A DNA stretch of 26,417 bases from a virus, in IMG/VR virus record IMGVR_UViG_3300034957_000026, positions 1 to 26,417 of that record; one strand, written 5' to 3'. The translations under genes were made by a program, and so were the position numbers. Shown piece by piece: positions 4,187 through 7,535 of this stretch; positions within the stretch are counted from its first letter, which is position 1; the number at the start of each line of letters is the position of its first letter. Under the pieces are notes generated by a model, which saw only the letters and a program-made list of their open reading frames with translations, had not been told where the DNA came from and did no database searches.

Positions 4187-4447
4187 ATGCCCGTGACCAA
4201 GGAGCAGGCGCTGGAAGCCGACGAGTTCCACCGTGGCGAGTGCCATGTGGAGCGCGGCCCCCGGGGCGGCGAGAAGGAGCACATCGAGCGCTGGCGCCGG
4301 ATGGGCCAGACCAGGCTCTGGAAGACCCGGCCTGACGACTTCCGGGTCCCGATCAAGTTCGGGATGCGCGCCCGGGACTCCTGGTACCTGACCCCGGACA
4401 ACGCGCACGACTTCCACACGGCGGACGAGTGCCCGCTGAACGACTGA
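4187..4447 (+). CDS. Hypothetical protein, 86 aa
   Basis: The product is a hydrophilic 86-residue protein rich in His, Arg and acidic residues, with DEFHRGECHVERG near the start and HDFHTADECPLND at the end. The two Cys and several His could bind metal, but the spacing matches no motif I know. The start at 4187 uses the AAGGAG inside the preceding gene, so translation is probably coupled. Its stop codon is the first triplet of the 63-bp repeat at 4445. Confidence 0.75.
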   Translation: MPVTKEQALEADEFHRGECHVERGPRGGEKEHIERWRRMGQTRLWKTRPDDFRVPIKFGMRARDSWYLTPDNAHDFHTADECPLND

Positions 4448-4507
4448 GCCTCAGTCGGGTGCCGGTCCCGTACCGGCGCCCCCTCGGGCGGCTCAGCCCG
4501 GAACAGA
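4445..4507 (+). repeat. 63-bp intergenic repeat, copy 1 (structured RNA)
   Basis: This copy differs from 4900-4962 at only three of 63 positions. It starts at the stop codon of the preceding gene. GGGTGCCGGT (4457-4466) pairs with ACCGGCGCCC (4472-4481) around CCCGT, and TGAGCC (4445-4450) pairs with GGCTCA (4490-4495) as an outer stem. One T-G pair here is T-A in copy 2, which supports conservation of the RNA structure. It is probably a terminator-like or processing element duplicated together with a gene end. Confidence 0.85.
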
Positions 4508-4813: not shown

Positions 4814-4902
4814 TGCGCCGGATCCAGGTCCAGAAGCAGCCCCGGCCTGCCCGGCCGGAGCCCGACCTGCGGACGCCCTCGGGCCGCCCGCTCCCGTACT
4901 GA
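4813..4902 (+). CDS. Proline/arginine-rich miniprotein, 29 aa
   Basis: The ATG at 4813 overlaps the preceding TGA, and the frame ends with TGA at 4900-4902, the first triplet of repeat copy 2. The product, MRRIQVQKQPRPARPEPDL and ten more residues, is basic and proline-rich and probably unstructured. Coupled translation and GC-rich third positions support it, but its small size leaves some doubt. The function is unknown. Confidence 0.5.
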   Translation: MRRIQVQKQPRPARPEPDLRTPSGRPLPY

Positions 4903-4962
4903 GCCTCAGTCGGGTGCCGGTCCTGCACCGGCACCCCCTCGGGCGGCTCAGCCCGGAACAGA
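4900..4962 (+). repeat. 63-bp intergenic repeat, copy 2 (structured RNA)
   Basis: This is the second copy of the element at 4445-4507, again beginning at a stop codon. GGGTGCCGGT (4912-4921) pairs perfectly with ACCGGCACCC (4927-4936) around CCTGC, and TGAGCC (4900-4905) pairs with GGCTCA (4945-4950). Two of the three differences from copy 1 fall in the loop; the third turns a T-G pair into T-A. Confidence 0.85.
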
Positions 4963-5592: not shown

Positions 5593-6840
5593 ATGACCGA
5601 CACCCTCCGCAAGACGGACTTCGAGACCCTGCTGGCCACGCTCGACGAGCAGCAGGAGCGCAAGGTCGACGTGATCCTCCCGGCGACCAACCTGTGCTTC
5701 AAGGACGGGAACCTGCGGGTGCTGCGCTCCGACCTGGAGCCCCAGCTGACCCCGACCGGCACCACGTCCCCGGTCCAGGTGTTCGCCCCGAACGAGGTGT
5801 TCGACTCCGGCTTCGCCGACCGGCTCGGCGGCCCGGTGACAGCGACCTTCATTCGCAAGCTGCGGGCCGAGGGCTGGACGGACATCCTGGACGGCACGCT
5901 GAACGCGATGATCCACGGCAAGCGGGTCCGCCGGAGCAACACCAACTCCCTGACTGTGAGCGGGGACGCCCGGACCACCGGAATGGAGCAGTTGGTCCCG
6001 GACGGGACCGACGAGTGGCTCCGCGAGCCGCAGACCAAGTCGGTCCTCCTGCGGGCTCTCAAGGACGCGGACGGCCAGCCGGTCGGTACCGCCCGCGCGC
6101 TGCTCAGCAACGCGTACAAGATCATCGACCACGTCGACACCCTGCGTGCGGCGATGCAGGGCATGCGGGCCGCCGGGCTCGGGGCGGAGAATGTCACCCA
6201 GTGCGACCTGACCGCCCGCCGCATGTACGTCACGGTCGAGGTCCCCGAGGTCCGGGCGCAGGCAGCGAGCCTGCTCAAGGACTACGTGAGCCCCTTCACC
6301 GGCAACCGGGGCGCGGACAACCCGGTCGTCCACGCGGGGTTCGTGCTCGGGAACTCCGAGGTCGGCGACGGGACGTTCTTCCTGTACCCGCGCATCGTGG
6401 CCGAGGTCTGCACCAACGGCATGACGATCAAGAAGGACGTCGGCGCGCTGGTGCAGCGGCACCTCGGGGCCCGGCTGGACGACGGGCTGGTGACCTACTC
6501 GGACGCCACCCACCGCGCCAACCGCGAGCTCATCACCCGCATGGCGGAGGACACGGTCCGGACCTTCCTGACCGAGGACTACCTGCACAGCGTCATCCGC
6601 AAGCTGGAGGAGCGCGCAGGTGAGCCGGTCGCCAAGCCCGAGGCCGCCATCAAGGAGGTCACCCGGAAGCTGGAGATCCCCGCCCTGTACGACGACGTGC
6701 TGACGCACTTCATCAAGGGCGCGGACCTGAGCCGGGGCGGCATCATGCACGCGGTGACGGCCGCCGCACAGTCGGCCGACCTGGACGCCGACACGGCGTT
6801 CAAGATGGAGGAGCGCGCCACGGCGATGCTCCTCGGGTAA
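5593..6840 (+). CDS. DUF932-type phage protein, 415 aa
   Basis: The start follows the repeated GAGACCAAGGAGAA leader (5573-5586). The middle and C-terminal parts fit the phage/plasmid DUF932 family: a LLRALKDADGQPVGTARALLSNAYKIIDH region (residues about 152-180), then DLTARRMYVTVEVPEV, HAGFVLGNSEVGDGTFFLYP, a CTNGM motif at about 274-278, and a long helical C-terminus. The biochemical role of this family is unknown; members are abundant in large phages and on plasmids. It is the largest gene in the left block and appears to form its own unit, with the motif at 5553 upstream and paired hairpins at 6848 downstream. Confidence 0.75.
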   Translation: MTDTLRKTDFETLLATLDEQQERKVDVILPATNLCFKDGNLRVLRSDLEPQLTPTGTTSPVQVFAPNEVFDSGFADRLGGPVTATFIRKLRAEGWTDILDGTLNAMIHGKRVRRSNTNSLTVSGDARTTGMEQLVPDGTDEWLREPQTKSVLLRALKDADGQPVGTARALLSNAYKIIDHVDTLRAAMQGMRAAGLGAENVTQCDLTARRMYVTVEVPEVRAQAASLLKDYVSPFTGNRGADNPVVHAGFVLGNSEVGDGTFFLYPRIVAEVCTNGMTIKKDVGALVQRHLGARLDDGLVTYSDATHRANRELITRMAEDTVRTFLTEDYLHSVIRKLEERAGEPVAKPEAAIKEVTRKLEIPALYDDVLTHFIKGADLSRGGIMHAVTAAAQSADLDADTAFKMEERATAMLLG

Positions 6841-6847
6841 CCCGAGA

Positions 6848-6914
6848 CGGCCGGAGGGGACGCCCCCGTCCCGCCCTCCGGCCGCCCGCCCCGGCACTCC
6901 CCGCCGGGGCGGGC
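6848..6914 (+). terminator. Two abutting strong hairpins
   Basis: Hairpin 1 is CGGCCGGAGGG (6848-6858) with CCCTCCGGCCG (6874-6884), plus a further inner 4-bp stem GACG/CGTC around CCCC. Hairpin 2 is GCCCGCCCCGGC (6884-6895) with GCCGGGGCGGGC (6903-6914), a perfect 12-bp stem with loop ACTCCCC. They share base 6884, so they compete for one position. They follow the DUF932-type gene and lie 5 nt before a tRNA-like element. They may serve as terminators or as tRNA-processing structures. Confidence 0.7.
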
Positions 6915-6919
6915 CACCC

Positions 6920-7002
6920 GCCCCTGTAGCTCAACGGTAGAGCGCCAGGCCCTCGCTCCCAGAGGACACCGGACGACACGGGATCAACACCCGTCAGGGG
7001 CA
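6920..7002 (+). tRNA. tRNA-like gene with enlarged anticodon arm
   Basis: GCCCCTG (6920-6926) pairs perfectly with CAGGGGC (6995-7001), followed by A. T8 is present. The D arm is textbook: GCTC-AACGGTA-GAGC (6929-6943). The T arm ACGGG/CCCGT (6978-6982 with 6990-6994) is perfect, but its loop is ATCAACA rather than the usual TTCRANN. Between position 26 and the T arm there is no 5-bp stem with a 7-nt loop. Instead 6945-6972 can form a longer interrupted arm capped by CCTC-GCTCCCA-GAGG (6951-6965). The anticodon is therefore undetermined. No CCA is encoded. It may be an inactivated tRNA or a functional mimic. Confidence 0.5.
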
Positions 7003-7046: not shown

Positions 7047-7250
7047 ATGATCAAGCTCGGAGACGCAGAGCTGCGTACGTCCAGCTACACCGTGACCAAC
7101 GCGTGTGTCGAGGTCGGCTCGGACAGCCCCGACCGGGTGCTCGTCGCCGACTCGAAGTTCAATCACACCGAGCAGGGCCTCGCGGCCAAGACCGCTCTCG
7201 CCCTGTCCCCGGCGGCCTTCACGGCCCTGATCGAGCACGTGCGCGTCTGA
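7047..7250 (+). CDS. DUF397 (BldB-type) protein, 67 aa
   Basis: The 67-residue product fits the DUF397 pattern well: an RTSSYT strand, NACVEVG with its conserved Cys, VLVADSKF (the DSK motif at residues about 36-38), and a C-terminal LSPAAFTALIEHVRV helix. DUF397 is a streptomycete family that includes the developmental protein BldB; members are usually encoded next to Xre-type regulators. No such regulator is adjacent here, so the phage copy may act on host partners; this is inference. The ribosome-binding site is GAGGGAGAACAGC. The gene is flanked on both sides by tRNA or tRNA-like elements and ends before a 12-bp hairpin. Confidence 0.75.
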   Translation: MIKLGDAELRTSSYTVTNACVEVGSDSPDRVLVADSKFNHTEQGLAAKTALALSPAAFTALIEHVRV

Positions 7251-7261
7251 CCGCCTGAACG

Positions 7262-7297
7262 CCGGTCCCTGCCTGCCGATGACCGGGCAGGGGCCGG
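7262..7297 (+). terminator. 12-bp hairpin between DUF397 gene and tRNA-Glu
   Basis: CCGGTCCCTGCC (7262-7273) pairs with GGCAGGGGCCGG (7286-7297), 12 bp with one T-G pair and a 12-nt loop. It is followed by TTCC and then, four bases later, by the tRNA. It may be a terminator or a 5' processing structure for the tRNA. Confidence 0.6.
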
Positions 7298-7301
7298 TTC
7301 C

Positions 7302-7372
7302 GCCCCTGTTGTGTAACGGATGCATGCCGCCCTCTCAAGGCGGAGGTACCGGATCATGACCGGTCGGGGGTA
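7302..7372 (+). tRNA. tRNA-Glu (anticodon CTC)
   Basis: All arms fold. The acceptor GCCCCTG (7302-7308) pairs with CGGGGGT (7365-7371), including two G-T pairs, with A at 7372. The D arm is GTGT-AACGGAT-GCAT. The anticodon arm is CCGCC-CTCTCAA-GGCGG with T33 and anticodon CTC at 7334-7336. The T arm is ACCGG-ATCATGA-CCGGT. It would decode GAG, the preferred Glu codon in GC-rich genes. The T loop starts ATCA instead of TTCR, a departure shared with the element at 6920. No CCA is encoded, so host tRNA nucleotidyltransferase would have to add it. Confidence 0.85.
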
Positions 7373-7535
7373 CGGGCAGAACAGTTCCTCCACGCGAGCA
7401 ACCAGCCGGGACCGGGAGTCATGCCCTGGGGCCCTAACCGGCAAATTGAAGCCGTGGACGCCCGGGTGGGCAGCGAGACTCATCCCCTCTGCGCCCGGAG
7501 GTGAAACGGGTGTCCCGACACAGGGGCGTAGTACC
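7373..7535 (+). other. Non-coding, structured region after tRNA-Glu
   Basis: There is no gene with a ribosome-binding site here. The region contains CGGC-AAATTGAA-GCCG around 7438-7454 and a longer interrupted stem CCGGG...GCAG (7462-7473) with CTGC-G-CCCGG (7489-7498). I looked for a further tRNA and found no complete cloverleaf. It ends at the perfect hairpin 7536-7562. Confidence 0.4.

Follow-up and report, generated by a model that had tools for sequence, protein, structure and literature searches.

Candidate non-decoding tRNA-like RNAs with an exchangeable or missing anticodon arm at an actinophage-like locus and in other phages, phiC31 among them

The presence of tRNA genes in phages has long called for an explanation, and the usual one invokes codons. 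The 83-nt gene considered here resembles the tRNAs modelled by Rfam RF00005 in its acceptor, D and T arms, its variable loop and its elbow, and scores above the gathering threshold of that model; unlike them it has no decoding anticodon stem-loop, the place of which is taken by 28 nt in this copy and by nothing in some relatives. Other tRNA-like folds lie within longer transcripts, namely MALAT1 mascRNA/menRNA and the t-elements of plant mitochondria (PMC4919922), and we propose a comparable processing role for the phage element. Those RNAs are eukaryotic and their cleavage by RNase P and RNase Z has been shown experimentally, whereas the phage element has full D and T arms and its processing is predicted. 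The C4 antisense RNA of phages P1 and P7 (cited in PMC11143913) is a phage RNA matured by host RNase P, as is predicted for the present element; by its description in that source, on which our comparison is based, C4 is an antisense RNA and not a full tRNA core. Phage-encoded tRNA genes with changed anticodon loops are also known, in which mutations of the loop evade tRNases (PMC10264068); these are treated as decoding and carry point changes, whereas the present element has a different arm altogether. Engineered tRNA scaffolds (e.g. PMC3753655) likewise bear a foreign hairpin on a tRNA body; they are artificial, whereas the phage element is natural and its arm was swapped in evolution. A literature search yielded no description of the class proposed below, and the original phiC31 genome papers may hold a remark on it. 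A conserved, codon-blind class would, if real, mean that what phages exploit is the shape of tRNA, whether to signal RNA processing or to serve as a decoy.

The window, that is, the whole stretch of DNA analysed, is a virus record of 26,417 bases with actinophage-like content (a WhiB-like regulator, tape-measure and head-tail proteins). The tRNA-like gene lies between two genes of its own strand, and the features of the locus are as follows.

5593-6840, + strand: upstream gene (phrog_1362, function unknown), anchor of the orthologous locus
6849-6883, + strand: first strong hairpin 5' of the tRNA-like gene (region z -5.1)
6884-6914, + strand: 12-bp perfect hairpin, ending 5 nt 5' of the tRNA-like gene
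6920-7002, + strand: tRNA-like gene, 83 nt (Rfam RF00005 match, MFE fold)
6920-6926/6995-7001, + strand: acceptor stem, with A73 at 7002
6929-6943, + strand: D arm
6945-6972, + strand: replaced anticodon arm, 28 nt, CC.GG.CCTC (GCTCCCA) GAGG...CCGG, from the MFE fold
6973-6977, + strand: variable loop ACGAC (positions 44-48)
6978-6994, + strand: T arm
7047-7250, + strand: small downstream gene, DUF397-like
7261-7298, + strand: 15-bp hairpin, ending 3 nt 5' of tRNA-Glu, the hairpin-plus-tRNA module again
7302-7373, + strand: ordinary tRNA-Glu(CTC), T loop ATCATGA (ARAGORN and Rfam)

An earlier note on this DNA had placed a tRNA-like gene with complete acceptor, D and T arms at 6920-7002, and both the Rfam match and the MFE fold show this to be correct. 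RF00005 matches the gene at 45.9 bits (gathering 29; E 5.7e-7 across all Rfam), leaving the anticodon arm unaligned as a local end or insert, and the fold pairs the acceptor 7/7, the D stem 4/4 (loop AACGGTA) and the T stem 5/5 (loop ATCAACA). Chance does not explain such a tRNA core, and over its full 83 nt the element also folds more stably than shuffled sequences (z -2.0). ARAGORN, which the note had proposed as a check, passed over 6920-7002 and called tRNA-Glu(CTC) as the sole tRNA. The element thus has the stem lengths of a tRNA (acceptor 7 bp, D 4 bp, T 5 bp) and is detected by the covariance model; it has A15-C48 in place of the Levitt pair (G15-C48 or A15-U48), which most of the wider class possess, and A54 in place of the T54-Psi55-C56 of a canonical T loop. 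Its T loop had been said to deviate in the same way as that of the neighbouring tRNA-Glu, which holds for the first four bases (ATCAACA against ATCATGA) and not for the rest. The tRNA-Glu loop itself, ATCATGA instead of TTCGAAT, is found both in the window and in a related contig (L007 1209-1280).

The oversized interior of about 28 nt with an interrupted stem, also seen by that first reading, was recovered in the MFE fold as a hairpin at 6945-6972, where a normal anticodon arm has 17 nt. Instead of a 5-bp stem and a 7-nt loop with U33 and a purine at 37, the arm ends in GCTCCCA, which has C33 and C37 and is therefore not a decoding loop. A class II long variable arm was rejected for this element, as the extra length precedes a normal 5-nt variable loop. 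Intron or BHB splicing was rejected too: the bulges lack the archaeal motif, and splicing would restore no 7-nt loop with U33. That we are dealing with a working but unusual tRNA, for example one with a spliced or expanded anticodon loop, is highly improbable: some relatives do have 9-nt loops on 5-bp stems (phiBT1 and the L221-L332 series), and the elements of AbbeyMikolon and Lilbooboo bear tRNA annotations, but in the window C33 and C37 sit atop an extra interrupted helix, no intron that can be drawn gives the required loop, and armless forms cannot decode. The exact structure of the window's arm is a model, which a single sequence does not prove; the arm alone (34 nt) folds no better than shuffles (z -0.12). 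No homologue of this arm was detected among the loci examined, so its function has to be read from the class and from the locus.

With the phrog_1362 gene as anchor, five further contigs were found. Directly 3' of this gene L005, L007/L008 and L009 carry, like the window, elements with oversized arms and 7/7 acceptors. That of L005 has 79 nt (stem 5-7 bp, loop 11 to 7 nt), that of L007/L008 has 92 nt (CCGGA-c-CCCCAC(GTTTGACA)GTGGGGG-ta-TCCGG) and that of L009 has 83 nt. At the orthologous position L006 has a normal tRNA-Trp(CCA), the 5' acceptor strand of which (GCCCCTG) is identical to that of the window. Judged from these sequences, the arm is replaced wholesale between relatives while the tRNA body is retained, and one of the states at this locus is a normal tRNA. 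The earlier note would have given up its reading had relatives shown a normal arm and the present copy a frayed one; L006 does have the normal arm, but the acceptor, D and T arms of the window are unfrayed. Since three other lineages have oversized, unrelated arms and one has tRNA-Trp, the window's element does not represent private decay. Upstream in the L005 contig lies a second odd tRNA-like element (L134 2415-2510; acceptor 6/7, CCCCG/CGGGG plus a 7-bp inner stem), unreported by Rfam. The same related phage contig has a type II hammerhead ribozyme match (L005 1973-2039, 46.5 bits).

The route to a wider class was a weak match in Streptomyces phage RemusLoopin. A homologous element was found in phiC31, phiBT1, Vash, Euratis, Lilbooboo, Samora, Heather and Sebastisaurus. 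In phiC31 it occupies 31424-31510 of AJ006589 (L175 1516-1602), unannotated, between genes 13 and 14 (Rfam tRNA, 53.6 bits); as this is a standard laboratory phage the question is testable at once. All eight scanned records of the phiC31 class (RemusLoopin included; Vash as L051) exceed the Rfam tRNA cut-off, and among the records of this class only Lilbooboo is annotated at the spot, as tRNA-Gly. Related genes of AbbeyMikolon are labelled tRNA-OTHER. If the class is real, then, annotation pipelines conceal it by dropping such genes or giving them wrong labels. Identity among six phages of the phiC31 family is 98-100% in the tRNA body, against averages of 73-78% in the flanks and 74% in the arm. 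The body of phiBT1 is that of phiC31 letter for letter, and its arm, CCCCC(GACGTTCGA)GGGGG, is unrelated.

We define the phiC31-type element here by an outer 4-bp stem, an ACCCGGG-type internal loop and an inner hairpin capped by GNRA or UUCG. The outer stem shows the pairs CG/UA, CG/AU/GC/UA and CG/GC (the last counted on a hand alignment), the inner hairpin CCC/GGG or CGC/GCG with GNRA and UUCG caps exchanged, and the hexamer of the internal loop stays self-complementary (CCCGGG, TCCGGA and, in AbbeyMikolon, CCATGG). In an alignment of 14 sequences the 24-pair structure is 98.2% paired (0/500 shuffles as good), with 38 double-sided changes against 10.2 in shuffles (0/500), and compensatory changes occur in the acceptor and T stems too. 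Controls slid by one to three columns collapse to a pairing of about 52% or less. The stems of the phiC31-type arm thus covary; the window's arm has no detected homologue. The window's element was rejected as a member of this cassette family because its arm has neither the hexamer nor the tetraloop hairpin; homology of the window's upstream gene with phiC31 gp12 was likewise rejected, the gp12 translation looking unrelated by inspection.

These data bear upon the idea of a decaying tRNA, or of a tRNA pseudogene whose anticodon arm has taken up an insertion. The tRNA-Trp of L006, the atypical T loop of the window and an arm that folds like its shuffles would all agree with it. It is nevertheless improbable, as no stem outside the arm is damaged in the window or in relatives, the phiC31 family conserves the body to 99%, the acceptor and T stems show compensatory changes and bases 15 and 48 covary.

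Viral contigs were searched with a pattern combining a common D arm (GTAGCTCA..AGAGC) and an overlong interior, which gave at least 123 distinct matches. At least 59 of the 123 long-interior matches listed, the window and its orthologues included, have a 7/7 acceptor and a 5/5 T stem without a canonical anticodon stem-loop. Second and third viral scans, for slightly long and for short interiors, each added at least 48 genes with intact cores, and in 19 of the 48 short-interior genes listed a linker of 6-10 nt stands where the anticodon arm should be. Arm length consequently ranges from none to more than 50 nt, with acceptor 7/7 and T stem 5/5 throughout. Armless examples with complete acceptor, D and T arms are L357, L361, L370, L376, L404, L412, L463 and others. 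Among the 59 long-arm genes listed the outer anticodon-stem positions pair in 38, against 12.6 in shuffles (maximum 20). Bases 15 and 48, which form a tertiary contact of the L-shaped tRNA core, covary as G-C or A-U in 47/59 long, 45/48 mid and 42/48 short genes among the matches listed (p<5e-5 per group, by a permutation which ignores relatedness). The viral scans are tied to one D-arm sequence and so demonstrate existence, not frequency. True class II-like genes were set aside; several of these (L017, L019, L020, L025, L070, L078, L086) have the loop CTTATAC (anticodon UAU) and a long variable arm with a CAGATTA-like motif.

From all this the window locus very probably encodes a selected, non-decoding tRNA-like RNA. 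The earlier preference for a re-purposed tRNA or tRNA mimic over random decay holds up, the class recurring at the locus and in many phages with a core under purifying selection and a variable arm. Anticodon-nuclease pressure, which had been suggested as the cause, is not borne out: wholly armless relatives exist, and because arms can be absent, an anticodon arm that is not needed fits better than a loop mutated to resist a nuclease. Whether there is an overlooked class in phages of many hosts, phiC31 among them, composed of non-decoding tRNA-shaped RNAs whose arm is a swappable cassette or missing and which are selected for some job outside translation, we regard as an evenly balanced proposition.

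Certain arms recur. The 9-nt loop GACGTTCGA stands at the anticodon position in phiBT1, AbbeyMikolon and L210, and it occurs on three different tRNA bodies (L176, L178, L210) with stems CCCCC/GGGGG or CTCCC/GGGAG. A second cassette, CCCC-TACCCGGGTCTTGTAAC-GGGG, is carried on several bodies (L185, L191, L198, L199, L201, L204, L206); all cassettes of this type contain the self-complementary CCCGGG, which the search pattern partly required. Further arm sequences are shared across different bodies in L012 and L100, and in L029, L076 and L106 (CCCTCA-GGTGAAGG..., GCATTTGCG...). The same cassettes on different bodies show that some arms, at the least, do something in their own right. One might therefore think of a scaffolded regulatory RNA, in which the tRNA body would stabilise and process a functional hairpin that binds RNA or protein, as engineered tRNA scaffolds do. 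Both recurrent loops, and in the phiC31-type cassette the constant self-complementarity of the hexamer, the covarying stems and the GNRA/UUCG exchange, speak for such a role. For most arms, among them that of the window, no homologue was detected, and some members have no arm whatever; we consider this explanation unlikely.

As a control the long-interior pattern was run on 395 actinomycete genomes, where it gave 13 matches, all of them ordinary tRNAs with a chance second GGWTCRA. In 40 genomes this D-arm type was counted 366 times, about nine per genome, and so some 3,600 normal tRNAs, by extrapolation, were covered. The short pattern found, in 198 genomes, eight ordinary tRNA-Arg and one possible short element. 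The viral counts are lower bounds, and their per-base density is not comparable with that of the actinomycete genomes. That the long-arm form is unseen in these 395 genomes is in keeping with the main rival to our preferred explanation, a decoy or competitor: the phage would flood the cell with tRNA-shaped RNA, unusable as tRNA, which binds host enzymes whose target is the acceptor end or the elbow of tRNA, such as defence nucleases and nucleotidyltransferase toxins. An intact core combined with an arm that is rapidly exchanged as a whole, at an unchanging locus, is what one would expect of it, and phage tRNAs which counter tRNA-targeting defences (PMC10264068, PMC11555353) count in its favour as well. 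Against it, no target is known and many elements lack the anticodon loop that an anticodon nuclease would bind. We look upon the decoy as possible but not probable.

The explanation which we prefer overall, if tentatively, is that punctuation of phage messages is the main job of the element. Selection would act on what RNase P, RNase Z and the CCA-adding enzyme read, namely the acceptor-T stack and the elbow of D and T arms, and would not constrain the anticodon arm, which could be lost, lengthened or exchanged. For cleavage by RNase P the acceptor-T domain is needed and the anticodon arm is not, which would explain why the arm can be anything or nothing. We infer that the element is transcribed as part of a polycistronic phage message, and it is probably cut by host RNase P and RNase Z; its excision would divide the message, with a stable small RNA as by-product, and this division would be the selected function. 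Cleavage of tRNA-like elements by RNase P is known from other transcripts, among them phage RNAs (PMC4919922, PMC11143913). The conserved cassettes on different bodies are not what pure punctuation would predict, and the window copy, with its non-Levitt A15-C48, a T loop lacking T54 and an arm lacking a close homologue, also argues against it.

In the phage group of the window a hairpin ends 2-7 nt before 16/19 tRNA or tRNA-like genes, normal tRNAs included; the exceptions are the L007/L008 element, with a spacing of 10-11 nt, and L064, which has no hairpin. This fixed spacing fits a module in which the 5' cut by RNase P would leave a hairpin-shielded mRNA 3' end: in this group the upstream message would end a few nucleotides past a strong, exonuclease-blocking hairpin. 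A hairpin at -5 may, on the other hand, hinder RNase P, and it may be that the hairpin serves to terminate transcription. Neither a sigma-70 promoter nor a U-tract terminator was found between the genes around the tRNA-like gene, which counts in favour of punctuation. That the hairpin association is confined to the window's phage group also counts against punctuation; as a general rule for odd phage tRNAs the upstream hairpin was rejected, because the association fails outside this group. An ORF-based test of co-direction was swamped, controls too, by spurious long ORFs in GC-rich DNA. To the left of the tRNA-like gene the window also contains a 77-nt repeat, 90% identical and with a hairpin, at 4431-4507 and 4886-4962.
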